NCBI RefSeq assembly: GCF_035083965.1
Contig: NC_089725.1
Coordinates: 27,847,925 to 27,911,924, forward strand
Origin: Branchiostoma lanceolatum
Taxonomy: Eukaryota > Chordata > Leptocardii > Amphioxiformes > Branchiostomatidae
Length of the DNA stretch: 64,000 bases
Direction: 5' to 3'
The notes under the pieces were generated by a model. The model made no database searches, was not told the origin of the DNA, and saw only the letters and a program-made list of their open reading frames with translations. Shown here one piece after another: positions 22,700-62,615 of this stretch (position 1 is its first letter; every line of letters begins with the position of its first letter). The position numbers and the translations under genes were made by a program.

Positions 22700-23108
22700 T
22701 TAACTCCTTAAAGACGAAGCTCCTTTCCATTAATAGATATCGAGAACCCTTTCTTCCACCGATATCCGATGAACTACAAGAAAGTGACTCCTTCAGACTT
22801 CTTGGTCTTATCTTTTCCAAGGCCCTGTCCTGGAGAAGCTACATAGAGTCCATCGCCAAATCCGCAGCGATGAAAGTTGGTTCGCTTCTCAGAGCCAGAC
22901 ACTATCTTACTCCCGAGAGCATACTTTACCTGTACAAATCCACCATTCGTCCCTGCATGGAGTACTGTTCACATCTCTGGGCTGGAGCTCCAAAGGATTG
23001 CTCGAACCTTTTAGACCGCATCCAACGGAGAATTAGTGTGGTCATTGGTCATCGTTTGGCTTCAAAACTCGACTCCCTTTCTCACAGACGAAACCTCCCT
23101 GTCTGTTG
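22700..23108 (+). pseudogene. Non-LTR retrotransposon reverse transcriptase, C-terminal fragment
   Basis: The open frame reads KTKLLSINRYREPFLPPI, then SFRLLGLIFSKALSWRSYIE, then STIRPCMEYCSHLWAGAP and a final stop after LSHRRNLPVC. This is the thumb and following region typical of Jockey/CR1-like LINE proteins. It is 5'-truncated, and no palm catalytic motif is present. It is a dead insertion. Confidence 0.75.
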
Positions 23109-26849: not shown

Positions 26850-29800
26850 ATGGATATGCTAGATCAAGCCCTGGACTCCAGGTAGGTGGGGTTGGGTTCT
26901 GCTCGCGGGGGTTGGTGCGGGCCACAATGGCGTCTGGGTTGGCACAACAAATGTTGCGGAGCGGGAATCTGGAAAAGGCATATTTGCTGTCTACCGAGAA
27001 GGAAGGAGAGAGGGGGCTGGATCGGGGAGGTGTTCGGGGGTAGAATTCAGTACAGTTCCGCGGGGAATGTCCGTATGATGCGCCTTTGGGACTGGCGATC
27101 GCGGGGGAAATGCACGGCGGCTCGCGTCCGTGCCAGCCGTCGGGGCAGACATGCATATGAAACCGCCGCGCCATTGATAAGGCCCTGGCGCGTCATGGGG
27201 CTTCGATCCAGGGGCCAGGCGGTGGGGAGGGAGGGGATGAGGCTACGGCGATCGGCTTCTTCCCAGTGGTACTGATGTGTTATGTTATGCTACAGACCTC
27301 TAGATAAAGGATTAGCTTGCAGGACACCCTTGTAGTAAAGACTGAAATCGTGACGTAAACGATACAGTTTTACTTTTGCATACCACACCGTACCGGGATA
27401 TCCACTTTTGTTTTGTGTTTACACCAACCAAGAGGTGTTTTAAACGAACGGGGTATACTAGTAATATATTTTAGTATGAATTACAATTACAACCTAACCC
27501 AGTTTGTCAAACACAGAAATCCAGGCCAATCATTGAATCAAAATTGTCTGCAACATATGGACATGGTCATAACGTTAATCATATTGAAAAAAAAATGTCA
27601 CAAAATGACAAATCTACAACCACCGCCCTGCACAAGTATAAGTTGACATGGCTGGTGAACTTTGCATTATTTAAAGGTGTTAGGTTTGGAAGTGAGATTT
27701 CTTATGCCCAATATGTTATGTCTCTTTTACAGCCAGGAGAAGGGTCAAGAAGGAGAGGAACAGGTCACAATCCACGCAGTCTCAGAAGGTGGGTCAGTCT
27801 TTATAAGTTGGGCCACACGCCGCAAGTTTGCTAAAAAAGAACCCAACACGCTATTTGAGAAGAGTATGGATGGCTAGGGCTGCTTGCCTGAAAATGCTAG
27901 TTGTGCAGTGGTAAGGCTGTAACGCACTACACACTGTACATGTAGCTATCAAAAAACAGTAATTATATCTCTTCGCGTCAGTCTAAGGCTGACTGCTGGC
28001 TCCACTATTTTTAGTTGACCACTAGATATACTGGGTCACATACAGCTGGTCACATCTATCCACCACTTTGAGTTTGAAACAAAGACAATGTGTTTGAGAC
28101 ATCTGTAGTGCAGCACTCCCCAGGTATGCGGAGTTTAGTTATACAGGAGTACATTAAACTGGGGATTGTTGTATTGGACATCTCTTTAGATAATGACGAT
28201 GATGATGATGATTTTATTCGGTAAGGATCTCGCGGGCAACACAACCCAAATTTGATGCATTCTTAGCATGGCATGGCAAGATTTTGTTGGTGAACATAAG
28301 TGTTATATTGATTTTTGTAGCAATCAATAATTGATTAGTATGTTCAATGTTGTATCTTCCTAGCTTTATCATTAACCATCAAACTATCTGTCGTCTGTAG
28401 GTGGTGAAACAGCAACGGTTACGGTAAATGCCTCCGACGACCAGACAGCTGCGGTGATCGCGGCGCAGCAGGGAGGCAGTTTCACAGACGGCAACATCCA
28501 GTATCAGTTTCGCACGGAGAGTAATGGGCAGGGACAGGTAATCATCTCACAGTTCCGAGTGTGCATGTGCAGTCATGATGCCTTATGGTCTTGATCAAAG
28601 ATTAAGATCCACTTGCAGGGCTCAAAATACTTTTTTCAAGTTCAGGTTGACAAAATGGTTGCCCATCATAATTTTAGGTTGCCCCAGATTTGCATAGCAC
28701 AACTGGGCAACCGGGTATTTCGAACCCCGACTTGCCAGCCGTCTTTGCAACATGACGTGTAATGGCCATAGTAAGAGTCACTGAAAACAAGTGTAGCCAT
28801 ATGTAAAGCCCCTGTCACAGATAGCTGACCGAGGCCTCCCGACCGTCTCCAGACCATGGTTTGTGAGTGAGTCGTAACTAATGTCATCTGTGGATGGGAG
28901 TTGGTAGGTTAGGTTGTACCAGCCGACTATATGCTGTTTGGATGCAATCAGAGGAGCAAACTGGAGCTAGAATAGGACAAATTCCAGGTTACTTCCTGAA
29001 TCCAACAGCAGCTTTAGGCAGCTAAACGCTGCAAAATGTCTAGTGGCCAGTAGTGGGGATTTACTACTAATCCCGGAAAAATGCTGCACAATCACAGACA
29101 GTAAATAATGTTCATGTTGTTGCTGTGACTCTTCCAGGTGACATACAGGGTGGTGCAGGTGACAGATGCCGCAGCTGGAGACCCCCAGGCCGACACCTCC
29201 CAGGTGAATGTGGTAGTCACCTCAGGAAACTTTGTACCCGCTTCTCAAACTGTCACTCAGGTCAGGAACATGTAATGGTGTTCGCCGGCTTTTGCTTTTT
29301 TTTCACAGCTTAAGTTTTTTTTTATACATTGGCCTTCTTGTTATGGTCAACATGACAAAGGGAAGCCAAAATCCTTCTGATTTAAAAGATGATATCAAAG
29401 CATGTCATGTTGTCAAAAATGTTGTCATTATCAGAACACTGACATTTGTATTATATTGATGAAGGCATGCAGTCTTGTGCTATTTCTGCTTTCTTTTTGT
29501 ATAACATTACATGTACATGTGTACATTTACAAATTGGGTAGTCATCCAATTTTTTTCTGCACTTCAATAAATAAGTTGTGATTTGTCAGGGAACACCACC
29601 TTTTAGCAAACATATTTTGTAGCACTAATTTGGAAGCAAACTATCATCAGCCTTTTTATTTGACACGTTTTCAAACTTGTCGTTTCCAGCAGGCGGTTAT
29701 TCAGAGCCCATTTGCCAATGGCACGAGCCCTCCAAACGTCACAGAGCACAACGCCGGCGAGACCCGGTTCACCTACTTCCCCGCCACCAGTGTGGGGGAG

Positions 29801-32800
29801 GCGGGGTCCACCCAGACAGCCGAGGGCACCACACTTACACAGACTGCAACAGGAGGTCAGTGCTGCAGTTTCCATTGATGGGCTGACAAATATATGTGTC
29901 TATTATTGATGTCTCTAGTAGATTTTAACCTAGTATCAGCATACTGAAGTCTTTGCTGAACAGACACGCACACACATGAAAGAGTACAGGAATGCACATG
30001 TTTGACTGAAATAAGTGTTTTAATGAGAATGGTTCGATGTTACTATTATTGTTAGGCCACAAGCTGATTTCATTGAATGCTTCTCAGATTGAGATGATGC
30101 TAAACTGGAAGAACATCATAAACACAGAGCCTGAGTGCCAGGTTTATGCTTTGATGCACTACGAAGCAGAAACACTGTCACAAAAATCGTATATATGTTT
30201 TTAAAAAGGGACATGTTTTTTTATAAGGGGGCAAATTAAATCCACATATGTTTTGAAAATAGGGCCGTTTTTTTAAAGGGGGCAAATTAAATCCACATAT
30301 GTTTTGAAAATGGCACATGTTTTTAAAAAGGGGGCAAATTAAATCCACATATGTTTTGAAAATGGGACATGTTTTTAAAAATTAAATCCACATATGTTTT
30401 GAAAATAGGACATGGTTTTTCTTATGGGTCATATCTTTTAAAACAATATGCATCTTAAAAATAACCAAAATGAGAATATGAGACGAAAAAAAAACATACA
30501 CCATTTTCATTTTGTACCGTGTATAAGTTTATTCCCCAATCCAGGAAACCCACCGGTTTGCAAAGTGGTGCTTTCAAAATGGTCTATCGTTTCCGATTTA
30601 CCCCCCATTTTGATAGTGGTGCTTTCCAGTTACGCCGATTTCAAACCGGTCGATTTCAAACTGGTCGATTTGAAACTCCAAACGGAAATGACGTAAGTCG
30701 GAAATGACGTAAGTCGACGCTCATCGCCAGAGAAGCCACCAAGTATCGGTGATCGCTGTTTACGTCCTTGTTTTCACCGTCTTGTACGCGTTTTCTGATC
30801 AGCTACGTGTCCCCAGGATATACCAGGTTTGTGTTGACTTTTTCACGTTGTAATAATTTTAGAGTTGCATGTTTAATCGGTACTTTATAGAATGTAAATC
30901 GTAATGCAGCCGTATCGTTTGGAAGATTACAAAACTACGCAAATTGCGTGCCGAGCTAGCTATCGAGGAACTCTTCACTTTACGTTCTAACAACTTGAGA
31001 CGATCAATGATATGATATGTGGTTCAATTTTCGTTGATATGAATTGTTAAAATGTACAAACTTGCGATAGTTTTGCTCCGTAGTCAGTGAGGGGAATGGG
31101 GAGGGGGGCGAAGAGCCGGCGCAACCATGTGCAAGTTCGGACACGATTTTTGTAGTCTGATACGAACCCAGGAAGCCACAAAAATAAATTTGTGTTTCTT
31201 ATTCTGTTTGTTAAGAGACCTTAGCGAGTATAAATTTGTATGATCGTGCATTAGTTTGAAAGGAATATCTATCCAGATTCCAGATGAAGATTAAAATTAC
31301 TTGTCCTTGCTGGCTGGCATGTTTTTCTCAGGTTTGTAAAAATATGCATAGCGTGTAAATTTACCACGTATTATTCAAAGTTTTTTAGACATTTTGAATA
31401 ACTTACCTTGTTGCCACTGGGAATTGTTGTTATGTCCATTTGAACGCATTTTCATTGTTTCTTACTAATAGTATGCTCCAGAGGATCGGCACTGTAGGGA
31501 TTTTCCCAGCCCTTGCTGCATATACACAGCACCTATGAGTGCTATGACCATACAATTATGTAGCTGTTGATGCATCATGCTGTCTACACATATGCACATG
31601 CATGTGTCAAAGTCTTTCAACCAACGGTTGAACCAAGGATATGTATATAAATTATAATGTATTTGAAACAACACACATTGACAGTTTAGTGCTTTCTGAA
31701 GCAATGAAAACATGTTGATTTTCATCCCTGCTGGATACAAGTATCTGTAAGCACATCGAAGTATGTGTTCTTATTTAATATGCGTACCTGATATACCTGG
31801 TGCTTTATAATATTGTAGATAAGTTTGATGTGTACAATTTTTTTGTATTTGCAAATGATTGTAGAATATTTTGTAAGTGTTGGATTCCTCAGGGTAAATG
31901 AATTGAATGAATAGCTAGTACATGTAAATGAAAATTGATCCATTTCATGTAATGTTTCACAACACTCAGTCTCTTTATAAGAAGCTATGATTCTTCAATC
32001 TAGTTGTATCCATGCAGATGATGTCATTGTTTAGAAAATATGAGCATGATGGTGTAGCCTGGAATGTCCTTTGTTGCCTGTATCATACTTATTCCGACCA
32101 GTGATATTGAATGAATCATGAGTAAATGATAAAGGTGTGATCTCTGTGTGTGTTCTCTGAACTTGATCTAATTAGGCTACACCAAGTAATTTTTATGGAT
32201 GACGTCCGCGCGCGCATTGATTTTGGTCTGTTCCAAGAAAAAAAACAAGAAATTGCGCTTCCTGTAACTATGATCAAAGAGTTCCTTTTTGATTTGATAT
32301 ATTTTTGCAGGCCTGCAAAATCAATGGGATATGGAAAGAAACAGGACAGGACAACAACTGCTGTTCAACTTCAACCGATTTATTCAAATTATTGCTTTTT
32401 TCATGATGGATCAAAGAATTGTTAGTTGTTACACTGTGTTCTCTCATTCAATTTGCGTCCTAACATGTGTCGTCGACTATTATATTTCAAATCTAGGCAT
32501 CTTGTTTTTTTCGGCCCTTCTTGTTTTTTTTTCGCGCTCTCGCATTAGATTTAGGGTCTCCAAAGGACGTCATCCATAAAAATTACTTGGTGCAGCCTTA
32601 TGTACTAATACATGTAGTGGGATGTTGTGTAGAGGTTCTCATGTATTTTTACTGTACGGACAAGCATGGTCTGTATGTCATAATTGACGGAAAAAAAAAT
32701 CACATGCAGATTGTACATTTTGTAGATTGTTCAATATTCATCCTTTGTCAGATGGCAAGGGTTTCTCCTCAAGTTCCTTTCTTACCGATTCTTATTATAC

Positions 32801-35800: not shown

Positions 35801-38800
35801 AAAAATCAGGTATTGTGCAGGTACTACATAGCTGTCATTTTTGTTATTTGTTGCTGTGTATTTGATTTTGACATGATTGACCCAAAGGCAGTTGCTATAT
35901 ACGAAGTACACAAAGTTCTTCGCTACAGTATTGGCATTGTCCAATGGTTAGTGACCCTGCCTCTGGACCAAGAGGTTGGGGGTTTGAATCCCGGTTGTTG
36001 TCGCTAGAATTGGCTAGAATTGATTGCCCCACTTTTGCATTTGTAGTGATTGGCCAAGATGTTCACCAGACAGGAGCACCAGGTAAAAGATCCTCCCAGA
36101 TTCAAGTCAACACCTTTGAAATGCAAGCCTTGCATGTAACTTTGGGGTGGGATAGTGTGGCTGACTCAAGGATAAAACCTTTCCTAATTTTTAGATTTGG
36201 GTGGAAGGTTCTAAATTCTATGAAGGTTCTGTGATATCTGAATGCAACTTACACCTATCCTTTTGCATTGAGCAGTAGAGAGATCATTATATGCTGTTGT
36301 ACTGAAGTAAATAACCACTCAAGGACAATTATTCCAGTTCATAATACTGTAAAGGAATGGTTTTGAGTGAGAGTTTGTTCAAGCCCAAGTTATACATGTA
36401 ATCACATAATTATATCTTTGCTTGTAACCACCTCTTACATAAAGCATGTACATGTGGTTAGACAATGACCACTCTGAGGTAGGTGACTACATAACTGCTG
36501 AACTGAAACACAGAAATGCAGATGAAAAGAATATCTTTCAGCCACCGCGCTAGCCGTGCTTGGTTTAAAAACACTGAAAATACTGACGGCTACTTTACTT
36601 TCCTGTCCACCAGGCCAGTTCTATGTCATGATGTCTCCGCAAGATGTTTTGCAACAGGGAGCTCAGCGCACCATCGCTCCGAGAACACATCAGTTTAGTC
36701 CGTGAGTATTCTGGCGTCCATGTTTTGTGCAAAATAACATGCCCCATGCATGGGCTCAGTAGTTACCCCAAATTATCTAGCATTCTTCATAGTAGCATCC
36801 TTGAATACAGCGGATGACATAGAAATAAATACAAGTGCAATTGCACATTTGCACATTACTTTGATGGAGTGAAAGGCAAAGAAAATTGGGGGAATTATTC
36901 CTGGTTTTTTTAATGTTACCTGAACTAGTGCATGTATGCAGAAAAAAGTATTTTAAGCTCCATACTGGTATGTTTAGTTAATACCTGGCTAGTTGTAGCT
37001 TTGTTTACAGGGTTTGATGCTTCAAGGTGAGGTAATTTACACTGGAAGGCAATCCTGCTGGTATGGACTTTCACATTTTTGTTACTGATGGGCAAGGTAA
37101 AAAGAAATTCACCTGTAAACTGTAATGATTTCCTTTTTTGTTTATTTGTCAACAGAAAAATGGACAACACACGTCCAGTCAGGGATGAAAGGAGAAGAGT
37201 GTCCCACAATGAAGGCAAGTATTGGTCATTTTCTTCTCATCTGAATACCACCCTGACCAATCGAATCACGTGAATCGCATTGAAACTGACTCCTATCAGC
37301 CATTTCCCGACAAATCGCTTTCTAACTTGCGTTAACGACTACATCTGACCAAACAAACTCGCCAGTGAGATGGTGGAGGGTGTCAGCTTTCCAAAGATGT
37401 TTTCAGATTGACAATTTTGGCACTTTGGAAGTGATTGAAGGTGACTGTGATTTAACGTTTAGAGAAAAGTAGTAGAAACTAGACGTTAAATCGCGGTCAC
37501 TTTCAATCACTTCCAAAGTGCCAAAATTGTCAATCTGAAAACATCTTTGGAAAGCTGACACCCTCCACCATCTCACTGGCGAGTTTGTTTGGTCAGATGT
37601 AGTCGTTAACGCAAGTTAGAAAGCGATTTGTCAGGAAATGGCTGATACGAATCTGAGTTTCAATGCGATTCACGTGATTCGATTGGTCGGGGTGAATACT
37701 CAATGATTCAGTTTATTGTCTTTTGTTCCCCATTTTGGGAAGGTTAGACATGCTTGCACTTCAGATTTCAAGGTTTGATTTCAATTCACCAGAATAAGCT
37801 AGAATATGAAATGGCACCTATCGAGCAAGTCGGAAAAAGTATGATATGAATTGTGATAATATGGTATATCCTTAGTAACTTACGTAGTTGAAAAAAGGCC
37901 CACTAAAGGTTTGATAGAGCTTGCAATAAGTTGTCAACAATGCCTTAAAGTTTGATGTTTGAACTTTAAGCTTGCCTTTAAATGAAGTTTAATATTATGA
38001 TAAGATATTCTACCAGTAACTGTTGCCTGTGAAATAGACATTACAACACATTACAATGTAAGATCGACATAACATGAATACTTTTATATACCAGTTCAAA
38101 CCTGTAACTATCCAGTCCAAAGGCTTATACGTCAGGGTAGAACATGTCTTCTGTACAGTAAGCTTCAACAATGCCACAATGTGATAAATGATTGTTTTTC
38201 TTTCTACAGTTGAACGTCGTCGTAGAGACAAAATTAACAACTGGATCACGAAGCTGTCTAAGATTGTCCCAGACTGTGCCCAGGACCATACGAAGCAAGG
38301 ACAGGTGGGGGTAATGACATTTACTTGAACTCACAAGCTGATGCTTTGCTGTGGAGGGGGAGGGGGGCGTTTTTGCTTTGCAAAGCCTAATGATGACTGT
38401 GCAGTATATCTATAACACTAACATAAAACTGCATTAGTGATTAAGGGGAAACATTTGCATGAGAAGTTTGAAGGAGGGTAGTACACAGGCAGTAGTTACA
38501 GTCTAGTAGCTTTTGTAATGAAATCATTGAAGTCTTTTATTTAGTGAGAATTAGTTGCTTGATAGGTTTTGGTTATGATTAGTTACAAATGTTTAGAGTT
38601 GACTGCTTGTTATTTTAAATTCTGCTCTTTGTTGTTATGTGTTCATGTACAAAATGTATGTTTTATTTTCAATGTTACATCTTTGACGGTGCTCATCTTA
38701 TGAATTCTTTCCTCTTGTTAGTATACTGTTTGTGTTTCTGTGAATTCCTTCCTCTTGTTATTAGTTTGTGTTGTTATTGTTATGCCGTTACAGTTGTACA

Positions 38801-39139
38801 TTGAAGGTGCTCTTCCTGTGAATTGCTTCCTCTGGCTCGTAGTTTGTGTTCTCGTCCTTATGCCGTTACAGTTGTACTGTCAGTGTGACATGTTTGGTCT
38901 TGTTTGTCTTGCATCCTCTCACGCAGAGTAAAGGAGGAATCCTCGCCAAAACATGTGACTACATCCACGAGCTTCGCACGGCTAACGCCCGCATGGCAGA
39001 GAGTCTGAAGGACGCGGAGCGCATCTCTGTGGACGCTGAGTTGCTACGGCAACAGGTCGAGGAGCTGAAAAACGAGAATGCGCTCTTGAGGGCCCAACTT
39101 AACCAGCACGGTATCGAGGCCGTGAGCTCTAACCAATAG
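26850..39139 (+). CDS. USF: Upstream stimulatory factor (USF1/2-type bHLH-leucine zipper), complete, ten exons
   Basis: Coding exons: 26850-26881, 27733-27788, 28401-28537, 29138-29260, 29690-29855, 35629-35715, 36614-36701, 37156-37214, 38210-38304, 38927-39139; phases agree throughout (1056 nt, 351 aa). The N-terminus MDMLDQALDS matches the vertebrate USF2 start. NIQYQFRTES and VTYRVVQVTD are conserved activation-region blocks. GQFYVMMSPQDVLQ...IAPRTH (res. 201-230) is the USF-specific region. The basic region is HNEVERRRRDKIN (res. 247-259; His247, Glu251 and Arg255 are the expected E-box contacts), followed by helix-loop-helix and a leucine zipper ending LLRAQLNQHG. Family proteins dimerise, bind CACGTG and activate transcription. 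All introns are GT-AG except the one after 37214, which uses a GC donor. The 3' UTR runs to about 41.2 kb. Confidence 0.93.
28616..28729. mobile_element. hAT-like MITE in USF intron 3
   Basis: CAGGGCTCAAAATAC at the left and GTATTTCGAACCCCG at the right are imperfectly inverted; such CAGGGCTCGAAATA-type ends are usual for hAT elements. Inner GGTTGCCC and GGGCAACC also pair. ACTTG occurs on both sides, a partial target duplication. Confidence 0.5.
32175..32598. mobile_element. 424-bp element nested in the 5-kb element
   Basis: AGGCTACACCAAGTAATTTT at the left and the matching AAAATTACTTGGTGCAGCCT at the right bound it, with the inverted match running on through TATGGATGACGTCC (about 34 bp in all). 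Further inward, GCGCGC- and AACAAGAA-type motifs also pair loosely. No coding capacity was found. Confidence 0.65.
34611..34631. mobile_element. 21-bp half micro-element with 7-bp target duplication
   Basis: CAAGGAGGTTTAAGAAAATAG is flanked by GTCTTCA on both sides (34604-34610 and 34632-34638). The left end equals the terminus of the 32-bp palindrome at 18906; the right half is lost or degenerate. Confidence 0.55.
35932..36060 (+). mobile_element. tRNA-derived SINE fragment in USF intron 6
   Basis: It has an A-box-like TGTCCAATGGTTAGTGACC and a B-box-like GGTTTGAATCCCGG at pol III spacing. It is truncated soon after. Confidence 0.4.
37215..37220 (+). promoter_or_regulatory. Non-canonical GC splice donor of USF intron 8
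   Basis: Exon 8 must end at 37214 (AAT GAA G) because exon 9 begins TT GAA CGT, restoring HNEVERRR. The intron therefore starts GCAAGT, not GT. GC donors are tolerated when the rest of the site is near consensus, as here. The equivalent intron in the neighbouring USF3 gene begins GTAAGC. Confidence 0.8.
37245..37699. mobile_element. About 455-bp near-perfect palindrome in USF intron 8
   Basis: The left half from 37248 (CACCCTGACCAATCGAATCA) is the reverse complement of the right half ending at about 37698, with a centre near 37465 (AGAAAAGTAGTAGAAACT). Each arm carries CACGTG (37267-37272 and 37671-37676). It begins 30 bp after the GC donor. It is a MITE of unknown class. Confidence 0.8.
38740..38885. 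repeat. 78-bp tandem duplication next to USF exon 10
   Basis: GTGAATTCCTTCCTC...ATGCCGTTACAGTTGTAC is repeated as GTGAATTGCTTCCTC... at 38818. A shorter related piece precedes it at about 38700. The second copy ends about 40 bp before the exon 10 acceptor. Confidence 0.6.
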
Positions 39140-41200
39140 TGTGGCCAGCTGTGTGCGTTGTATCGTGCTGTACAGAGGAAAGAACATGTGGGACCTATCC
39201 CAGGGAGGACCTCATAGTTGACTACGAACTAAGGAGTTGTACCATACATTCCAATAGCAGTACTGTGCAGTCTCCCTCACTCCCCAGTTTCTTTAGTTTA
39301 AGTGAGTCCCATATCTGTGCTGTACCTAGTGTAAAGATGAGTAAAGAAGAACACATCGGGACCCAAATATTGTTGACTGGTGAAAGTGCTTAGCGTATTC
39401 TTGATATTATGCAGACTCTTTTTAGATTTAAGTTGATTAAAGCTCCTCCAATATTTGAAAGCGGCAACATACATGCTTACCTTCTCCTGTACCTTGAATA
39501 TTCAACTGTAAGAATTGTGTGTTGTTGTAGCGGACTGGTAGAATGTGCTTGTGTGAGTGAGTAAGTGTATGTGTGATAGAATTGTGGTTCCTGCCACAGG
39601 TACTAGAGAAATGTCCCCTCAGAGGATTACTGAGAATTCTCCTTTTCTCATGACTAGAACAACTAGTTATGCCAGGTCAGGTTTGGTTGCCCTGATGATG
39701 AAGTCCCTTACTATTCAAGTGTTACATGTGAGAATGCTGCCAATAGTTTGATTTCAGTATTCTTGATTGTATCTATTCTAGTCATCGGACATCTCATTTT
39801 CTCATAGTAGTAGTCAGACACAGAACATGTCTATAGTGGGCAATGTGAAAAGTGGTCTGTCTAGCAATGGACAATATAATGTATTCACCTGAAATGTAAT
39901 GTGTAATTAGAACTCAGAATTTGTTTAGTTTTGTACATGTGCAACATCACAGGATGCTGAATTCATTTGACTTGGACATTTGTTTTGAAACAGGAAGTGC
40001 ATTCTTGTGTTAAGGTTTGATATCCTTATGTACATAGACAGAAATCTGGAATGACTTTGCATGTGGTTTTGTTTCTAGCTAGCATGTAACTTTTGATTGT
40101 TTCGGTGAATATATGGGAAATCAAATATGCTCTTGTTTTTAGTGGTAAAGATAGCCAAGTATGCCGAGATAGACTAAAAGAAAATACAAGTGATTTGTAC
40201 AATTGTTAGCCTCTACATTGTGTACATACAGGTATTGTAGCCAATCACTTGAATACAATTGTACCAAGAAGGTAGAGGGTTTTTTGTATATGTTGCCCCC
40301 ATGATGTGTTTGGTCCACTCTGCATGCCATTTTGTACCTCATGCCCCAGCAAAGTTAATTTTTCATACATTGATGAGTTAAGCTTTGATATATTTTATAC
40401 CTGTATTATTTGTTTGGGGGCTGATCAGGAAGGATGACGAAAAATGGCATAGGGCAAACATGTTGTTGCTATTCCAAATTAAGAATAGAAACTGGCACTA
40501 AGCACTAGTAGTTGAAATATGACGCCCCTTCTTCAGTTTGTATGTCTGTTGAAAAATAGAAGCCTCTGTAAATGTCCCATGTTCACCAGAATGTCCCCAA
40601 TAATCAACTGTGAAGAAAGAATGCCTTCCTGATCTAGTGTTGAATCCACGGAAACTTCAATGGGTGCCCTAATCTCCAAGCAGATCTATAGGTTGCATAA
40701 AGACCGTATCAAACTGGCAGAGGAAGTACGTTTAGCGGTCTTTGCAATCTATTGGGTCTGGTTGGAGACTATGGGTGCCCCACAAGGATGTTGTTCCTAA
40801 AGCCCATCATAGATACCTAATATGGAAGAAAATTCTCATGTCTTTTGTATTTTTAAGGGTAAGGTTTGGTGAGAAGATGTGTGAAGTAAAGCCACATTCG
40901 TATGTGCAAAAATCAGGTATAGAGGAACGAAAATCAGGACTAGAGGTACAGCCTGAAGTAGCGACAACACTGGACTAGATGAGCAGAAATTTAGACATGC
41001 CATGCGACTAGCGAGTTGGCATGTAGTTCTCATGATGATGTTGAAGTCTCTACATCAGAAATTCCTCTACTCTGTATGGATAGATTAATGTGATGGATGT
41101 GTGGCAGGATGTATAATCTGTAATCCAGTGGTACATGTTTCTTTTTGTGACTCTTCATCAAAGTGTACATATTTTTGACAATAAAGAAAAAAAATTGATG
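39140..41200 (+). other. USF 3' UTR with polyadenylation signal
   Basis: AATAAA at 41180-41185 is the first convincing signal in context, implying a 3' UTR of about 2 kb. It contains the MITE at 40670-40771. No other coding evidence was found. Confidence 0.55.
40670..40771. mobile_element. CTCCAAGC-family MITE, copy H, with 9-bp target duplication
   Basis: Left TAATCTCCAAGCAGA and right GGTTGGAGACTA are inverted, as are TTGCATAAAGACCG and CGGTCTTTGCAA inside. TGGGTGCCC flanks both sides exactly (40661-40669 and 40772-40780). It lies within the USF 3' UTR. The 9-bp duplication points to a Mutator-like mechanism. Confidence 0.75.
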
Positions 41201-41358
41201 AGAAGCTGACCCTTGAAACGAGTTTTGGTTTTGCCACTGAAGTTAGAAGAGATGACAAGGAGTGTCATACCTAGGCTATACTAGTGCTGTAAATGTGGCA
41301 AGGTTTATGCAAAAGTCTTATTTTGTGAATACAGTGTAGTTTCATCAGGTTGGCCATG

Positions 41359-41915
41359 TTAAAGGCAACCTAAGCAATATTAGGGCGCTGAAAGTCATAT
41401 ATTCAAAATCAATTTTTTTCTGATTTCTATCCATAGTAAGTTTAGATAACACTATCCCATCGCATATCGACCATCATGGAGCAAAAATGTGATGTCGTTG
41501 TGTGGTGGGAACTCATTGAAAATCTGAGCACTTGGAGGTCAGCCATCATTTCAAATCTTCCGAACATGCACGATTCTGACCGATAAGTCCCGAACGCTTC
41601 CGAAGAAATAATCACGTGGTCTTGGCTCAATGTGCTTGGGTATTGTGACGTCACGCGGCCGAAAGTTACCGAAAATTGTCGACAGAAACGGTTACGGATG
41701 GATTCTGGGCTGATTTTTGGGGGGACCCAATAAATAAAATACTCCTTTTGTGGCTTGCTTCTGTGCTATTTCTAAACGTCCAAAGTATGAAATAATGATG
41801 CAGATGTGCTATTAAATATAGGGAAGTAAATGTAAATTTCAACCTCACCAAACAGAATTGCTTTCCCCAGAATATTTCAAGTTTTGCCCCCTGAAATCGC
41901 TTAGGGCACCTTTAA
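41359..41915 (-). mobile_element. 557-bp TTAA-flanked MITE, copy 2 (inverted)
   Basis: It matches 2875-3429 over its whole length in reverse orientation, with TTAA at 41359-41362 and 41912-41915. It retains TGACGTCA, but one CACGTG has become CGCGTG. It lies between the USF and USF3 genes. Confidence 0.75.
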
Positions 41916-42482
41916 GTTTCATGGACCCAAACCGGAAAGTAAGGCTTTTGTAGCTATAATATAGCCCAACGAATATGATTTAACTGCCAATGGTTCGGTC
42001 GTCCTTCTGCTACCTTCCTCATGGCAATACGGACTGGATCTAGTTCCAACGGCTCCAAAATTACAGTTTGGACTCATGACACATAAAAAGTTTCATAATC
42101 ATCCAATGAGAAGGATGAGTAGAAGGCTCAACTATTGTTTGAAAGCAGCAGGTGACAATGGATTTTAACATGCAAAAAACTGGGCCACTTGGAGTTATGT
42201 TTTGATGTGTAACGTTAGAGTTATCTACTAGTATCATATATTTCCTTCTGACCAAGTGGAAATTCCCTTTGTTGTGCAGTACTAACTTTTTCCGCAAGGT
42301 GGTGTTGATAAGTTGCAAGAATCCCAGCGGGCTGATAACCATGTGGTATGCGCACACCCCCGCAATAACAACAAAGTGGACTGATCCGGTTATGGTAATT
42401 TGTCAAAATGGCGGCATCCAAGTTCGTCTTCGAGCCCACAACCTACAAAAATCCTGCTAATTTTGCCTTATAAGTTTTAACC
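41916..42482. other. USF3 5' flank and probable 5' UTR
   Basis: This stretch lies directly upstream of the USF3 start codon. No TATA element was recognised. An inverted AAATTCC/CACAACC-type reading frame on the minus strand has no support. Confidence 0.35.
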
Positions 42483-45400
42483 ATGTCCTCGATGACGATG
42501 ATGAGGGGAAGTGTAGGATCCGAGGGATCGGGAAACGCCGGAACGGAGCTGGCTCGCGATCTCCCCGGCGAACAGGAGGACCAGCCCGCCGGCCAAGCCC
42601 AGGTGATGGCATCCCAACCTGAACAAAAGTCAGACTCGGGGGTGAACAACAGTCCCGGTGGTCCAGACTCCGCTCTGGTGCAACAGCAAGCCGACATCGT
42701 TCTGGACCCTTCAGGTACGGTACAAGGTTTAACACAGAAGGGAGCGTCTGGGATTGGGAAGGGACTTGTGCTTGTTTACCGTCTACTTTACGAGTGTAAG
42801 GAGGGAGGGGGGTGGACATAGTAGAACGAGATCACTACGGACACTTGCTTTGTGGGTGGCAAACACTGGTGACTCATAAATGATGTTTACTGTAGATGTT
42901 AGAACGGAAGGGAGCACCATGCCAAAAGTGGCGAGAATAACAACGTAACGCACTCTAAAGACTAAAACTACACAGCATACACTGATAATAATATTATACA
43001 ACATAATTCATAGATGTAAACATAAATAACATGATTAGTTCACGTGGAAGATAATTAAGTTTTCAAAGTAAACTTGTTATATACAAGTTCTTTGTAGAGG
43101 TTTTTATATCCTACCTTGATCCATATGTGAATGTGAGGAATGATTGCTGAAAACAGCACTGTGCAGCTGTGCCACTCTTGTTGATAAATGAATGAGAGGA
43201 AATAAAACTATCTACGGGTTAGTCAGGACATAAGCATAAGTTTTCTGTAACTTTGATCTACATGTAGTACTGAATTTTAATGGGTTAACGTTAAATGCTC
43301 TCGTCATGTACTTCATGACACTTTTTACAGCTCAATGACAGTTTTGAAACTACATGTACAGTATATCCACGTCATGGTTAGTGCTGCATACCTAAATAGG
43401 ACTGGACCTGACGTTTAGGTTCAAGTCAAAGAAAACCTAACGTTAAATGTCTGGATATAAGTCCTCATAAGCTCATATACCAACCTTTAAACCTTCTGTA
43501 GATTGTGAAATCTGCACTGAAAAAATAGGAAAACATTGCTAGTATACCCAAATTGTCATGGCCGTGCACACAAAATTTGACAAATTGCAAAAGGTTAAAA
43601 AACAGGTTTTGTGGCTCTGGAAGCTTGGGAGACCATCAGTTTTCTGGATCAAGAGTCACTGAAATAAGAGTTTTGTAGTTGTCCATGTCTACATACTACT
43701 AGTATATGTGGTGTCGATAGTTGAGCTAAAACTTGGAAGTAGAAGACACAGGGTCGAGAGGTCACAGGTTTGATTCTTGGCATTCCTGGGGATCGAACCC
43801 GGCCCGCCAGCACACAGACTGCATGCCATAAATACTAGGCTAAAAGGTCTGGACCAGTTAGACTGGTCAGTTTGGACCCCACTGTTACAATGCTGTGTCC
43901 TTGATTCGAGAAATACACTATACATGACCTTCCTTAGTATCGTTACTCCACCCATGTGTAGATGGGTTACTATGGGTACCTGAGGTAACAAAGGTACACA
44001 GGAGAGGGATGGGCCCTGCTTTCCAATACCATGCCCAAGACTCAGTGGATTACAGTAAGTTAGTAACAATCAATTGCCCCTAATTTCCAGTTCAAGGATT
44101 GGTCCCATTTGGACGTTGGAAAAATATGGGAATTTATGCGAATATGCAGTAGACATGCAACAGCTCTAACAATTTTTATCTTTTATATTCATAACAATAT
44201 GCAAGAACTTTTTTGCTACTTAATCATACCCAATGCCTATATATATATGTCTCCAAAACCGTTAGGCCTGATGAAGAATGCTTATACGATAAAGGTTTAG
44301 ATTGGCATTCACATTTTGTTTACATGCTATCTGAACATTTGTACATTCATTGCAGATATGTGACTCTTATTAGGAACAAGAAATGGCCAATAAAAAATCA
44401 TAAGATAAACGCCTTTAAGGTGTCCGTATCCTGATGCCTCAAAATGCAACTAGCTACTTGTTAAATACTGTTATCTTTTGTCAGACATGACAAAAAAATT
44501 TGCATTGACACAGGTCACATTTTATTATCATGAATTTTATAAGAGGTCCGTTGAAGCTAGTCTCTACTAGACTCCGTGGGTTGCTGGAAAAATTGACCAA
44601 ATAGACAGAATAATTTGCTGGCTATGAAGTTACCATTTTCAACCCGCCTTGGTTGAGTGAGCTCAATCCCCCTAACAACTATCCCTACATATTTTGCCCT
44701 ATTTTTCCTACAGCTTTTTTTATTTGCGGGGAGGTCTGTTAGGGACTACATTGGAACAGCAGAAAACAGGAGACTGGATTTCATAGTTTTTTCCTCCTGC
44801 AGAAGCAGACTCCAGCCTGCAGTCAGCGGTGAACGTATCGTCTGTGCCAGCTGCTGGACTCCAGCAGGGCGTGGTTCCAGTCCACCTGAGTCCAGGTGTC
44901 ACCATCCTACCTGGTGTCGCCAACAGCGCCGGGCTCATCACCAACTCTGTGGAACAGTAAGTCCACGGATAGCATAGTTCTTTGTACACAACCAAGTGTT
45001 TTATTCAAGACCAACTCAGGCAACCTCAGCTGCCTCTTCATTCTACGTGTAGTTCAAAGATTTGTTGGTCGTTTGAAATATGCCCAGTATTAAAAGCATA
45101 CCCGCCATCTGCTTGTATTTATTATATTATTATTAAATCAAATGCACATGAGGAATCTACTAACTCTATGTAGTATGTTGTTTAGACGTGATCAAAATAT
45201 AATACAAAAATGATCAATATCTATGAAAAGGTCAACATTTTTTGTTCCAACTACTGTTACATGTATCTAAAAAAACATTCAAACACAATTTGAGGAAATC
45301 TTTGACAAATATCGTTGCTGGGGCACTTGCATGTTGTTATTCAAGCTATGCAGCAATCAGTACAATAAGATGACCTGAAATGTTTCATTCCAGTGAGCAG

Positions 45401-48400
45401 AGGAGGTACAGGAAGAGGGCAGTGCATAATGAGGGTAAGCAGTGGTCTCTGTGTACAGATACATCAATCATTAATTCTGGGGGGATGTTGTGGATGTGGA
45501 TGGCATGTTTGATGGGACAAGTTCATGTTCATGAGGTGCAGGGATTGCTGTGTAATATTCTAGACACATTTGCAAATAGGAAAATGCTGGATGTACTGAA
45601 GATTTAGTTTTAAGTTTGCTGCACAGGAGGGCTCTAGCCACCGCCCCTCATTTGACAGAATTTTCTTGCAAATGACGAAAAAATTTTAAAGGCCGTTCCA
45701 TCAACCTTGACAGACAAGGATCAGTTGATAAATATCCAAATTTAAATAATTGATGGATGGAAACTCATCAATGACAGAAATTTGTACACGGTGACAAAAA
45801 ACATCAATATCTTCATCAATTGAAATGGGATGATAGAAAGAATTTCAAGCTGACTAGAGCCCTGCAGCGCAGTGAAAATCAAGAGCCCACATTGTCTTTG
45901 ACTTAGCTGTTAAAACTGTAGTAGGAACACAATGGAAGAACATATGTTTGTGGTGTGATGAGTTTCCTGGGAAAGGCACTAGGGCAAAAAGAATTAAAAC
46001 TTTAGGATGCTGCAAAAATTTACAATACCAATTTGATGAAAATTAAATAGGTTTGTTGCCAAATACTGGTATATCGATTCCTTCTAAACAATATTGCAGC
46101 CAACTATTATACAACTGTAAGACTGACTGAATTGTACGTAATATTAGGCAATACAAATACAGAACAACATCCTTGCCTATTTAATAGTAAAACCAATAAC
46201 CACTTCTCAAATCAGCTTGTGAATCCCAGTTCTTTCTCTGTTTCCACACTCCATGTTAGTTGAAAGAAGGCGGAAAGACAAGATAAACGCAGGAATCCTA
46301 AGGATCGGAGAACTTCTCCCCTGCACACAGCAGGAGAAACAAGCTGTGGTAAGTTCCTGCCTTTTATTATCTCCTTGAAAAAAGGAAGTATTGTTTTTGG
46401 TGTGTGTGTTTGTGTTTCCAGATATTTTTGGTCAGCATAACTGTTATGTGTGAAGGTCTTTTTTTTCTGTGTTCATTGACTTTAAGGCCCTAAACAATTT
46501 ATCAATAAATTAGCCTTGCATTGTTTTCTGATGTTGTTATGTCATTTTGCTCGGTAAGTTAATTGCGACTACTGTTTGGTTTAAGTGCCTGTGACTTTGC
46601 ATTGATAGTTTGCCAGCGTAGTTGATTGTGTTAGTCCATACCAGTTTATTTCGCTGGTTCTTGGATATTTTAAAATGAAGATTTAGCAAGACATCAACAT
46701 AAAAACTGGGTTTGGAAGAGTGCTTGAATCTGACTTGAATTCACTCTTAACTAGGTATACCTATGTACTGTCTTTCTCCTCAAATTCTGTTTTCATATTG
46801 ATCTTCCAGTTCAGCTTTATTTTTTCTATGCCGGGAACCAGCAGATAAAATTGGTTTGGCCTAGCTTTGTTACAAGAGAAGTGCTAGCTACTGAAACAGC
46901 AAGGAAACGTGCTGCCCTATGTGCCACTAAGCACTACAAGGTGAACTATTGGTGTTGCATGTCTGATGAGTGGGGTTTTGTTATACCGTGTCCACAGAGT
47001 AAGCGAGGCATCCTTGACAAGGCCTACGACCACATTGTGAAGCTCAGTAAGGAACATGAACACATGCTGATGAACGGGGGATCACCTGTACAAGGTAAGA
47101 AGGACGTCTTTCTTATCTTGTGAAAGTGTTTAAGTGAAACTTTCACTTTGTCTTCCTTGTTAACTTTTCTATTTTATATGAATAACAGACATCTTACAGA
47201 ATTTGTAGAGCAAAGGACAAGAACATAGCCTGAGTGTCATCCTGTTTCAATTCCTGGCTCGGCCTTGTTTGGTGAAGGCAGAGCCTGGAACTGAAACAGG
47301 ATGACACTCAGGCTAACAAGGACAATGTTCAAACATTAAAAAACAGATACATAATATAATAGTTGATTATTTAAGCTTAAGCTTACTATGTGGAAAGAAA
47401 TCATTATACTGAAGTCCTTGTTGCAAACTGTTACCTCATCATCATTTGCATGAGTAACTGTTACATTACGACAGGCATTTACCAGCCTGATGAAATTATT
47501 GACGGAATGTCATCCTGTTGTTTCAGCCATGGAGATCAGGAGACTGCGGGAGCAGATCAACGAGCTGACCGTGGAGAAGGAGAGGTACGAGAAGGTGCTG
47601 AATATGCACGGGATCTCCGTCAGCCAAGACCCCACCCTCATGTGGAAGGTGAGTGTTAGACTCACTCTTTAATATCAAGTTGCTTATTAAGACTGCTTAT
47701 TTGTTGAGTGCTTATTTGTTAACTCAGGTCAGACTACTTTATACTAAGTTGTAAATACTGTTAATTTGTTGCTCGTGATGAGTCAGCTTTTAGCTCATGT
47801 TAATTAGTCTGCAATTCTGCTGACAGGCTGTGAAACGCTCCATTAGCAAGTTAATGAACCATTTATTTATTCATTCATTCATTCAAGGGGAAGACCAAGG
47901 CCATCAGTCCCGTGGGGCCCTACAAGTCTGTCACGCCGCTGGTGATCCGTCACGTCAAGACAGAGAGCCAACAGGTCGCAGTAGGCAGTGGAGTCGGCCC
48001 GATAACTAGTGGGCTGAACATGCAGGCGAACTGTAAGGGAGGGGAGATCTCGCTTGTACAGGCACCTAACGGACTACAACAGGCAGTCCACTCTGGGATG
48101 TCCGGACTTCTGATGACGAAGCCAGCGGCCAGTTCGTCAGTGGTCAGCCAGCAGGTTCCTGTTGGACAGACGGTGGTCAACCAGGCCGGAGGGCTGGTCA
48201 ACCTGGTCCAAGTCCCCTCGCCGGCGGTCAAAGTCTTCCCGTCCGTTGTGGGGAGCTCGTCGGGGCCCGGAGCCCTGCAGGTCAACCCTACAGTCAACAC
48301 AGCAAACATGGCGCTGGTCTCGCCCCTGATGACTGCCGGGAGTGGAGCAGTGCTCGGCTCGCAACCCTGCGCCTCCACCGCACAGAACTCCATGGCGAAA

Positions 48401-51400
48401 GTGCCGCAAAACGCAGTTCAGGGCGGCATGGCACCCGCCGTCATCCCGATCCTCGGTAGCGTGCCGAGTGCCACTGTCGGCGCGTCCCAGGCAATAAACA
48501 CCCCGTCGTCAGTTTCTCCCTATCTCATACAGCCACAGAACTCTCTACTGGGTCAGAACGTGCTGGGTACAAACTCTGTTCTGGTGAACACGGTCTCCCA
48601 AGTAGGGGGCGTGCAGAACCCAGGCTACGTGACCGTCACCGTCATGCCAAACAACATGCCCAGCACGCAGGAGGTACCTGTAGCCAACGGGCAGCCAGTC
48701 CTCATGCCGGCTGGTCAGGTGGGGAACTCGGGTCTACCTGCCAATCAGATTCAGTACCTTCCCGCGGGGGTTCCCCAGAACGTGCAAGGCTCGGTGAACC
48801 AGCTCAGCACGACAGAAACGATACACCAAAACCCGCAGTTCTCCAACATGCTCGCCCCTCAGAACATGAACCCCGTCGGCATGCTCCCCGTAAGTGCCTG
48901 TACCAACCTCACCAACGTGTCCCAAAGCACGGCCGTGCCAAGACTCTCCACAGGGATGACGAATAGCCTGACGTCTCCTGTTCTGAATAACGGCACGAAG
49001 CCGGTTACGAGCATGGTTTGGTCCACCACGAGCGTGCCCAGACCCGGAGGGTTCAACAGCATACAGATCCCGGGAGCGAACGGCATGCAGGTGGTCGCTG
49101 GTCCAACCATCAACTCCAGCGGCACCCTGAAGCTCCCCCTGCCCAGCAACCCCAACGTGGTGCCCAACATGACGGGCCCCATGTTCACCATCCTGCAGGG
49201 TCCCGGCAACCAGATCATTCTCATGCCCGTGGTCACCAGTGCCGGGACGGGGGCCAGTCTTCCCAACGCCACGTCGTCTTCCAGCAGTGACAGCAAGAAA
49301 AAGTCCAAGAAGTCCAGCAGCAAGAAGAAGGCCCCGAAAAGCGGTGACAAGGGGGCGAAGGCAACAGACTCTGCCACAAAGAGCAAAACCAAGGATAAAG
49401 AGATTGGTTCCACGCAAAATGGGAAACAGACAACACATGCGGGGCTAATAAAGTCCCCTACAACTGTAGATAGTCAAGCAATAATGCAGTCTGGAGCGAC
49501 AACTGTAGTGAACCAATCTCCGAGTCAGGCCACTCCAATCATGTCGCTGCCAACTTCGTCAGGAACCACTCCTAAGGATGTAAGCACATCAGCTACAGTC
49601 GGGACATCAAAAGTTACATCTACCCCATATCTCTTACCTCACCCGAGCATGCAGGCGCAAGTGCCTCACACTTCTCTGCCAGTAAACGTTATCAATCCCA
49701 CATCTTCCATGGTGTCGACTCCGGCCAGTAACAGCTCGGGTGGCCAGACTGTAGTGAGTAATCCGTCTGCAGCCAGCTTGCAGGTGTCGGCCGGACAGGC
49801 CCCTCTGATGTTCCCCGTCTCGCCCCTGCAGCTGCCGTGCCCTGTGAACCACACCTCCGTCGTGCCAACCCCCACGGCTTTCCTCACCAACCAAAGCTCG
49901 CAGTTCAACCCAAACCTCAACAAACTGGCCGGTGGGGGAGCCATGCAGGTGCCTGTTGGTGGGGGAGTGCAGCTACTTTCTCTCCCATCTCTCTCGGGGA
50001 ACCCAATGGTGCCATTCAATAACCCCCTACAGGTGAACACGACCCAAGTTGCAACAGCTGGCAACGGCCAGAACACCCAGGATATTCTAGCGAAAGCTGC
50101 GGAGTCCATATTTTCAGCGCAGTCTCCTGATCTGTCGTCGCCGTCCGAGCAGCCCCTGTTCAGCAGCCTTCAGGTGTCGCAAGCCAGCTTAGCTTCAGTT
50201 TCTGCACATCCAGGCCAGCAAACCTGCGATGTCGCCATGATTACGACGAATTCTCAGAATGCAGCTGCCACTACGTCATCCAACAATAAAACACAGTATC
50301 ATGTGCTGACTCAGGCCGCTGGGAACGCTGAACATGATAAGAGAAGTGAGTTGTTTGTACAGCATTCTACAAGTCATCCGGCCAACAGGCAGGGTAGTCA
50401 AACTGCACCTCAGACTTCAGGAACGCCAATGCCGTTTATCGGTCACAAACAACATCACGACGGCCTGCAAGGTCCTACCTTGAGTTTTAGCAGTGCTCAA
50501 AATAGTGGCGTCTTAGGAGGAAACAGTGTGAACAGTCAGGGGACTGATTCAACTATACTACAGCAACATAGACACCACAGTGGTCATCATGTTGGACTGC
50601 CTAAGCAGGTGTCCACTCCTCACGCTTCAGTTTGTCCTGTGCCTGCGCCGTCGGGAAAGTCCAGAGCAAAGGCCAAAGCAAAGCCAAGTGAAACAGGAAA
50701 AGCAAAGACAAAGGAAAGGAAAAGCAAAAACGCTGGTCCTAACAAGTCTCAGACAAAGAGTAATCCTGCAAGCTCTACACATACAGGAGGCAATGCACCA
50801 CCAGTGTCTGGAGCTTCTGAAGGCACTGTCACAGTCACTAAGGACTCAAGAAGTGTTGGTATACAAGGACTTTCACAAGCAAATGTATCAGCCATAGGTA
50901 GCAACAATAACAGCTCACTTAGAGAGCAGACCTCCGCTGTGTTCAGTGCAAATGCCCCAGTTGGGCTGATTCCATCCCCGGTCCCTTTACCTGCACAGCT
51001 GTCCAAGACTGCCGCCCCCACCAGCAGTGTTGTCACACAGCCTCAGGGCACTGCAGCAGCTCCAGCTCAGGGTAGAACTGTGGTGCAAAGAACACCGACC
51101 AAGAACAGTAGGTTGAGTTATTCAGCGGAGGCTCTGATAGGAAATACCACTTCCAGACCTTCCTCTGGTCAAGAGACACCCCAACCTAACGCAGATAAAA
51201 CAGTGCCTAGTCCACATGGGACCCCAAAAAGGCCGCCCAACTCGCAGTACAACAATCTCAGACCTGAAACGACTGTCTCCAGATCTGTGATTTATTCCCC
51301 AGAAGTGCAATCAGGAAAAACACCGGGACAGGCCCGTGCACAGAATGTGCCGAACTCTTTTGAAGGGCAGGGGAGGGACCCTGTGCCTTCTTCACAGGCT

Positions 51401-53974
51401 GGTGGTTTTCTGTATGTTCCCTGGTTGAATAGACCCACCACAACAAACAATGGGAATCAAGCCTCAACAAGACCATCATCATCCTCCACCACAACTTTAG
51501 TTCCGACATCAAATGTGAGTGCGAAATCTTCCATAGGCACCAGGGCATCACCTGTTCCTCCCCCTGTAACATCTACAGTGCAGAAATCACCCACCTTCTC
51601 ATTCTTCCCTCTTCAGCCTGATCTTTTCAACCAGAGTCCTCAGGCTGCTGCAAACTTCACAGCAGCCGCGTCCTCAAAAACTTCCAAGACATCCATGCCA
51701 CCGCCCAACATTACTCCAACGTCGCACCTCATCCAGAACAAGGACACCGGCAGCATCAGGTTGGCTGACTCTGTCGGGTCCCAGACAGCTGCGGGAAGAT
51801 GGGACGGAAGGAACATCTCCTCCTTGCTGAGCCCAAGGCTCCACCCTCATTCCCACCATCACCCCCCTCGCTCCGAGCAGAGCGCCTCTCCGGCAGGTTC
51901 CGAAGCGTCCAGGTTGCTGGCAGCATCAAAAGCACACGGCAGCGCTCCTGCAACCGGAGCGAGCACTGTAGCCTGGGGAAACCAGGGGCTCTGCCAGAGG
52001 ATGCAGAGTCAGACCAACAGCAGCGTAGACAGCCAGAAGTCACAGCAGCCCGTGGGGCGGGAGGGGGCTCCGCTGCCACGACTGAACAGTGTTGCCTGCA
52101 GAACGTCATCAGACCCTGGCACCCAGCTGATGACAAATGTCCAACAGAGAACAGTGGAGACCAGTGACCAAAGGGTGCCTCCAGTCCAGCGCCGGGGAGT
52201 GGAACCCAGAGTCAACGCACACGGCGGCCGATCAGAACAGATTGAGCCTCAGCAAAGACAAGACAGACCAAGACCATCGCCTCAGGGTACCGTAGGAAGA
52301 CAGCAACCTGCAAAGAACAGGAACAACCCTTGGCAAGGTGATCAACAGAGCCCTGCCCAGGCAAATGGTCACGATGTGGCAACATCTCCAACAAGTCCTC
52401 GCTTGCCGGTCCAGAGCCCCCAAAGAAGCCACGCTGATGTGCTGTCAGGCGGGAGAGTCGTGCAGCAGGCTGGTAGACCTGATACTGCACAGAACATGGC
52501 AGGAAGGCAAATCCAAATCACCGAACAGCAAGCAGCCAGTCCACGAACAGCCTCTGCAAATGTGACCAGAAACCCTCAGAGCTTTGTAGCAACTCTTGGA
52601 CATCCTACGACCAACAACATTGATCGTTCCCCCAGGCATCACAACGGGCCTATGTCAGTGGAGCCCGAGTCCCCCTCCTTCTCCAACCAAAGGCCCAGCT
52701 CGGGAGAGAGCCCGGCTGCCAGAAAGAACAAGAGGCAGCGGGAAGCGGAGGATCAGCAGCCCAAGAGACTCAAGCCAACTGAGAATAACCAGACCATGAG
52801 AGGCAGTCAGCAACCAGCGACTGAAGGGAACAATAGCAGACAAAAGAATACTGAGAGGCCGATGACCTGGACGATAGTTCACAGAGAGGGTCCAGGAGCG
52901 CAGACAGGAGCTCACCATATGATACCGCAGCCCATGCAAGACTTTAACGGGGTGAGAACGTCTGCTTCCGATGTTAACCATGGACAGGTGGTGAACGGTC
53001 ACGGCAGGGAGCATCTCCCACCTCCGCACGCGCCCAGGCTGGCAACCTCTCATGACTTCTTCAACCCGGCCTTCAACATCCACCCCCGGGGCCAGGACAT
53101 GCACAGGCACAACATCCAGCCCAGGGCCCCGTTCCCCGGCCCTGAGTTTCAGAGAGACGGCCGGCCGCATGGCACTGCGCCTTCCACGCAACACAACCCT
53201 CAGCCAAACCTCAACACCTCTGCCTCCTTCCTGCCAGGTATGCCGGCGCCCGTTTCGGAGGCCGGTCGCCCGCACAGTAGAGCCCACGAGGTGGGTCAGT
53301 TCTACACCAACTTCAACCCACCCAAGCAAGTCCACGGAGACGTTCCCCTGCCTACCTACCTCCCGAACCAGGTGCTTACCTCGCAGCCCCCTCGACTTCC
53401 GGAGGGCCGTGCTGAAATTGCGACCCCATTTAACCCCTTCTCACCGCCCAGACCTGCTGGTTTACCCTTGAACTTCTCCCAGAACTTCCCTGTTGTCCCA
53501 GATGGGAACATCCCGCCTCGTACCACCTTCAATCTTCCCCCCGCGGTCACCACCGGCCCCCCGGCCAACACCCTGGTCAACTCTCTGCCTCCCCCTCCCC
53601 CGCCCATCACTCCCCACGTGCCGAACTTCGGCATGTTTCCCGACGTCCCCCACAACGTGGCGGGGCCGCAGAACGACAACGCGGCGGCGCTGGGCGTGCC
53701 CCAGCTGCCCTTCCACACCAGCCCCATGCTGAGCCAGGCGCACGGAGACCCCCACCACCCGGGGCTGAGGACGGGGCCGCTCATCGGGCCCCGGGGGAAG
53801 GAGAGCTTCATGCACAGCGCCATGAGCATCCAGAACATCCTGGGGAAGGGCCAGCACCCGCCGCTGGAGGACCCCACCGCAATGAACCACGGGATCGGCG
53901 CGCCGATGGGACCAAGTTATCACACGTCTGCCTTCAGCAATGCCGTCCACGCTTTCAACTTTCCCCCTCCTTGA
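42483..53974 (+). CDS. USF3: USF3-type bHLH-leucine zipper regulator, complete, seven exons
   Basis: Coding exons: 42483-42714, 44803-44956, 45394-45434, 46260-46348, 46998-47094, 47527-47648, 47888-53974; phases agree (6822 nt, 2273 aa; human USF3 is about 2245). The basic region is RRYRKRAVHNEVERRRKDKIN (res. 132-152), then INAGILRIGELLPC and SKRGILDKAYDHIVKLS, then a zipper and GISVSQDPTLMWK, all matching the USF3 pattern. The huge last exon is Ser/Thr/Pro/Gln/Asn-rich, presumably disordered, with lysine-rich patches near res. 706-740 and 1170-1200 that could be nuclear localisation signals. Conserved USF3 islands are YSAEALIG (about res. 1320), GRQQPA, FNPFSPPRPAGLP (about res. 2093) and the C-terminal IQNILGKG. 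It is a nuclear DNA-binding factor by family; vertebrate USF3 is linked to epithelial-mesenchymal control. Confidence 0.92.
43740..44066 (+). mobile_element. SINE-like repeat in USF3 intron 1
   Basis: GGTCACAGGTTTGATTCTTGG resembles a B-box region; further on, ACTCCACCCATGTGTAGATG and CAATACCATGCCCAAGAC match the repeat at 57262-57475. A foreign stretch with GATCGAACCCGGCCC sits between, perhaps a second tRNA-like insertion. Confidence 0.45.
45628..45863. mobile_element. MITE with AGGGCTCTAG termini in USF3 intron 3
   Basis: AGGGCTCTAG at the left and CTAGAGCCCT at the right are inverted. Internal motifs such as TTGATAAATAT and ATCAATTGA are loosely symmetrical. The termini resemble hAT elements; no clear target duplication was found. 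Confidence 0.5.
47227..47314. mobile_element. 88-bp hairpin in USF3 intron 5
   Basis: AGCCTGAGTGTCATCCTGTT at the left and AACAGGATGACACTCAGGCT (with minor differences) at the right form arms of about 34 bp around a GGCCTTGTTTGGTG centre. The AGCCTG ends are like those of the hairpin at 4600-4679. Confidence 0.6.

Positions 53975-56678: not shown

Positions 56679-62615
<5,937 letters not shown>

Follow-up and report, generated by a model that had tools for sequence, protein, structure and literature searches.

The human transcription factor USF3 has been little studied and its origin is unclear; human USF1 and USF2 lie on chromosomes other than that of USF3. USF1 and USF2 carry a USF-specific region upstream of the bHLH, and KIAA2018/USF3 is described in one paper as a bHLH leucine-zipper (bHLH-zip) member of the USF family. 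Human KIAA2018/USF3 lies on chromosome 3 (PMC5379515), and in a Xenopus survey each of USF1, USF2 and USF3 has a scaffold of its own (PMC3842043); a tunicate survey gives USF1, USF2 and USF3 a single Ciona counterpart, Usf (PMC7693978). Here we analysed a 64,000-nt stretch of the Branchiostoma lanceolatum genome (the window) in which a USF gene and a USF3-like gene are direct neighbours, whereas human USF3 on chromosome 3 is apart from USF1 and USF2. Both genes are themselves of known kinds. Their linkage was not found in titles and the beginnings of abstracts of the open-licence PMC literature, and it may already be visible in annotated genomes. Where a tree of the short bHLH fails, gene structure, in the form of a linked pair whose introns match, would connect USF3 with USF1/2, and the loop intron site together with the linkage provides markers to look up in other genomes.

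Exon-by-exon rebuilding of both genes bore out the first-pass annotation, which had claimed a complete USF1/2-type gene and a complete USF3-type gene in the same orientation about 3.3 kb apart. Both are on the + strand, the start at 26850 and the end at 53974 agree, and 3,343 bp (39140..42482) separate the coding regions. The upstream, USF1/2-type gene comprises nine exons (26850-39139, +) with 321 codons, no internal stops and intron phases, in order, of 2,1,0,0,1,2,1,0:

26850..26881, + strand, USF exon 1, MDMLDQALDS; very short, with a codon score within background
27733..27788, + strand, USF exon 2
28401..28537, + strand, USF exon 3
29138..29260, + strand, USF exon 4
29693..29855, + strand, USF exon 5
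36614..36701, + strand, USF exon 6, the probable USF-specific region
37156..37214, + strand, USF exon 7, basic region as far as HNE, then a GC donor
38210..38304, + strand, USF exon 8, 95 bp: remaining basic region, helix 1 and loop; length equal to the middle piece of panda USF1
38927..39139, + strand, USF exon 9, SKGGIL, helix 2, leucine zipper and stop

The short first exon presumably resembles the start of human USF2, and exon 6 probably encodes the USF-specific region. When compared with PDB chains, the bHLH-zip of the upstream gene matched USF2 (8ia3) at E 2.7e-47 and USF1 (1an4) at 8.3e-26, with MITF next at 1e-05. The basic region (HNEVERRRR) holds His5, Arg13 and Glu9, the last likewise a class-B basic-region residue. 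The gene departs from USF1 and USF2 in adjoining a USF3-like gene and in the donor of its basic-region intron, which is GC (AAG|gcaagt, 37215-37216) and makes this a GC-AG intron, a point missed in the first-pass annotation; a GT four bases beyond, if used, would lead to an immediate stop, as read by eye. Most likely this protein acts like USF1/2, dimerising through its bHLH-zip on CACGTG and activating through an N-terminal region. A toxin-subunit Pfam model that aligned with the zipper scored 18.5 bits against a curated cut-off of 25 and was set aside as a chance coiled-coil match.

Intron 5 of USF (6,758 bp) contains an element of about 5.1 kb at 30152-35232, about three quarters of the intron, with 549-bp inverted arms that are 98.7% alike and hold 52-bp tandem repeats. 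A palindrome about 460 bp long (37237-37706, 92% self-complementary) begins in intron 7, 22 bp past the GC donor.

The downstream, USF3-like gene comprises seven exons (42483-53974, +) with 2,273 codons, no internal stops and intron phases, in order, of 1,2,1,0,1,0:

42483..42714, + strand, USF3 exon 1 (provisional), no homology
44803..44956, + strand, USF3 exon 2 (provisional), no homology
45394..45434, + strand, USF3 exon 3, basic region as far as HNE
46260..46348, + strand, USF3 exon 4, remaining basic region with Lys at position 13, helix 1 and loop
46998..47094, + strand, USF3 exon 5, SKRGIL, helix 2 and an NGG stretch
47527..47648, + strand, USF3 exon 6, zipper and DPTLMWK
47888..53974, + strand, USF3 exon 7, the giant last exon, 6,087 bp including the stop; rich in S, P, T, A, G and Q

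The giant exon lies within a stop-to-stop frame of 2,038 aa, for which the chance expectation, from base composition alone, is log10 P of about -53; no Pfam domain was found in it at E 0.01. Coding potential was evaluated with a codon score trained on the giant exon and compared with background stretches for USF exons 1-8 and USF3 exons 1-6. Not one of 500 or 1000 background stretches reached the score of USF exons 3-5 or of USF3 exons 1, 2 and 6; USF exons 2 and 6 were intermediate (33/1000 and 39/1000 background stretches reaching theirs), and USF exons 1, 7 and 8 and USF3 exons 3, 4 and 5 were unremarkable, equalled by 105 to 197 of 1000. The bHLH exons of both genes are supported by homology instead. 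For USF3 exons 1 and 2, which have no homology, the support comes from an uninterrupted frame, from the splice sites and from codon use like that of coding sequence. That missing homology, and a giant exon with no Pfam domain, would fit a USF3 model that is partly wrong, in which exons 1 and 2 form part of a separate transcript or the giant exon joins some other gene. We regard such an error as very improbable: frame and splice sites are consistent throughout the model, codon use is coding-like in exons 1, 2 and 6 (by the score trained on the giant exon), and the human protein appears to have counterparts of exon 6 and of a short part of the giant exon.

The comparison with pieces of human USF3, with 200 shuffles each, is to be read as a lead, not a test. 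The segment from the bHLH-zip to WKG scored 270 between window USF3 and the human protein, against a shuffle maximum of 53 and against 112 with the window USF; a SYSAEALIG piece scored slightly above its shuffles (54 versus a maximum of 49), and a C-terminal piece scored 89, equal to the shuffle maximum of 89. By this lead the bHLH-zip to DPT..WKG and SYSAEALIG would be alike in the two proteins, whereas window USF3 has HNE where human USF3 has HNA, and 139 residues before HNE (exons 1 and 2 being provisional) against ~22. Beyond the bHLH, the USF3-type label may be taken as a lead that draws on these human pieces.

The bHLH-zip points to kinship of USF3 with USF. USF3 matched the PDB chains of USF2 at 5.3e-13 and USF1 at 1.5e-10, followed by MAX at 1.6e-4 and MITF at 2.4e-4, so that among bHLH proteins of solved structure its nearest relative is USF. 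The two window proteins are identical at 42 of 106 positions (E 2e-17) in an alignment that ends at LNQHGI in USF and LNMHGI in USF3; past this point USF stops 7 residues on, whereas USF3 continues for 2,039. Upstream of the basic region the N-termini displayed no similarity, with 763 of 1000 shuffles scoring as high, and thus only the bHLH-zip ties the two by sequence. Retention of the USF-specific region in USF3, considered for an LQQG resemblance between USF exon 6 and USF3 exon 2, was rejected at 211 of 1000 shuffles as good. Relatives were sought by tblastn in viral contigs (USF3 and USF queries) and prokaryote contigs (USF query only), and none were found.

Phylogenetic analysis was less informative. 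The first-pass annotation had proposed a bHLH tree as a check on the kinship, and the alignments of 66 to 68 columns proved insufficient to settle it. With 13 rows (11 solved chains, MXD1 among them, and the two window proteins) USF3 was left unplaced. MXD1 was omitted from later trees for its very long branch (5.33), and the best 12-row tree, with ten solved chains, did join USF3 with USF, at a support of 45/32 that tells nothing either way. When a human USF3 row was added, the two USF3 rows joined at 97/99 and the USF clade stood at 35/25; in topology tests that included this row, USF3 with MAX was rejected (p-AU 0.028) and USF3 with MITF/TFEB was not (p-AU 0.309).

Intron positions were read from the rebuilt models. 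The first-pass annotation had pointed to two introns common to both genes, one in phase 1 after HNE and one in phase 0 before SKxGIL, and both were recovered: the phase-1 intron falls after the first base of the Val codon in HNE(V)ERRR, with a GC donor in USF and GT in USF3, and the phase-0 intron directly before SKGGIL in USF and SKRGIL in USF3. Under a crude uniform model, the probability that three randomly placed USF3 introns match both USF introns is ~6e-5. Phases in fact match over four consecutive introns (1,2,1,0), including two upstream ones that had been missed; because the proteins are unalignable there, the upstream two count as weak evidence for kinship. Two USF3 introns, one in the zipper and one before the giant exon, have no USF counterpart. 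Within the bHLH motif the introns delimit pieces of 22/95/51 bp in USF and 22/89/51 bp in USF3, the outer values (22, 51) deriving from the motif alignment and the middle values (95, 89) being measured exon lengths.

A survey of 107 panda bHLH motifs, which has no USF3 entry, puts these values in context. Panda USF1 has the same 22/95/51 pieces as the window USF, and USF2 is printed as 21/96/51; the 51-bp last piece occurs in USF1 and USF2 only, whereas the 22-bp basic-region site is found in USF1 and also in MITF, TFEB, TFEC and TFE3. The claim that both common introns prove USF–USF3 kinship was accordingly abandoned: the basic-region intron is not diagnostic because the MITF/TFE genes have it too. 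On the survey's data, what links USF3 with USF is the loop intron. The basic-region intron is of greater age, or at least of broader occurrence, and may predate the USF/USF3 duplication. In an ant bHLH study (PMC3527142), Mitf coordinates imply the 22-bp site as well, and the two USF genes both have the 51-bp loop site and neither has the basic-region site.

This distribution bears on whether USF3 could instead be another class-B lineage near MITF/TFE, with the common introns left over from a forebear that it shared with USF and MITF. The phase-1 basic-region intron that USF3 has in common with panda USF1, MITF, TFEB, TFEC and TFE3 and with ant Mitf is what such an ancestry would leave, and the p-AU of 0.309 accommodates it. 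The MITF/TFE loop intron, however, lies 63-64 bp before the motif end in panda, against 51 bp in USF and USF3, and similarity is lower, at 2.4e-4 for MITF versus 5.3e-13 for USF2. We consider this ancestry quite unlikely.

One residue and one region, Lys13 and the giant exon, set USF3 apart from USF. Basic position 13 is Arg in USF and Lys in USF3 (HNEVERRRK), and human USF3 presumably also has Lys at this position. Class-B bHLH proteins follow a His5 rule and have an invariant Arg at position 13 that reads the central base, according to a review (PMC8431614). USF3 thus lacks the class-B Arg, and for this reason we file it with USF by descent and not as a typical class-B binder. With Lys in place of this Arg, we hypothesize from the sequence that its choice of the central E-box dinucleotide would be softer.

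Given common descent and the same-strand, side-by-side position, tandem duplication is the simplest origin of the pair, and we think it likely that a single ancestral USF gene gave rise to both USF and USF3 long ago by duplicating in tandem, with linkage kept in this lineage. The first-pass annotation had suggested such a duplication, before vertebrates and with the linkage lost later, and part of its case holds: the USF3 bHLH-zip is nearest USF among solved bHLH proteins, the pair of intron sites is confined to USF among the 107 panda motifs, and the genes adjoin on one strand. Its appeal to the basic-region intron weakened on finding that site more widely, and the tree, at 45/32, does not place USF3. 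Intron agreement proves common ancestry and not the mode of duplication, so USF3 might have arisen elsewhere, by dispersed or large-scale duplication, and been rearranged beside USF in this lineage; in the ant study the two USF genes lie on different, short contigs with no sign of linkage, neither of them known to be USF3-like (PMC3527142). Such secondary adjacency is unlikely in our estimation, as the chance that a gene would come to adjoin, in the same orientation, the only relative it has is ~4e-5, assuming 25,000 genes in random order. A recent duplication was rejected, since the two loci share no long matching stretches (best E 0.004); the lack of recognisable long intron or spacer copies is as expected of an old event.

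The tandem duplication could have proceeded as follows. One ancestral USF gene would have duplicated in tandem and the copies stayed neighbours. In the copy that turned into USF3, the bHLH-zip exons would have persisted along with the phase-1 basic-region intron and the phase-0 intron ahead of helix 2. Its USF N-terminal region would have been altered or lost, and its reading frame extended beyond the former stop to take in a very long last exon of low complexity. Gain of the giant exon after the duplication is plausible given how soon USF, and how late USF3, terminates after LNxHGI; we infer the direction of this change. USF3 most likely would bind E-box-like sites by the same fold, with half-site choice altered by Lys13 in place of Arg, and its long C-terminal part, probably disordered, would recruit partners.

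If the window and vertebrate USF3 genes are orthologous, the duplication would predate their split, with linkage kept here. We suggest, tentatively, that vertebrate USF1, USF2 and USF3 all go back to a single ancestral USF–USF3 pair, linked and still intact in this locus, their chromosomal split having come about through whole-genome duplications and loss of one neighbour per copy and not through breakage of the pair, and that USF3 would be a copy of USF in which Lys13 had shifted the E-box preference and ~2,000 new residues had been added at the C-terminus. Two whole-genome duplications with alternate neighbour loss would suffice for the vertebrate separation, with no need for pair breakage.

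The spacer between the two genes (39140..42482) is overlapped by 18 stop-to-stop frames of at least 60 aa, the eighteenth being the frame of USF3 exon 1; the other 17 were scanned and gave no Pfam match at E 0.1. A repeat copy inside the spacer (41359-41916) is 95% alike to a second, at 2874-3429, in the opposite orientation. Neither a tRNA nor an Rfam match reaching the gathering score was found in the 64,000-nt window. Frames that by eye resemble retrotransposon remnants lie at 8174-8485 (+), with an endonuclease/exonuclease match slightly under the cut-off, and at 22675-23106 (+), with no Pfam match, and an open frame at 11787-12383 (-) has a weak sulfotransferase match slightly under the Pfam cut-off. 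At 1-2031 (-), an open frame that runs off the window edge contains an LRAT domain (2.7e-10) followed by a long Ala/Lys/Glu-rich tandem-repeat array with DNA periods mostly of 24 to 96 bp. Convergent with USF3, frames at 59221-62747 (-) match MOSC_N (1.7e-8; a second piece at 0.0021, below the cut-off) and MOSC (3.4e-7), and probably constitute one MTARC-like gene.
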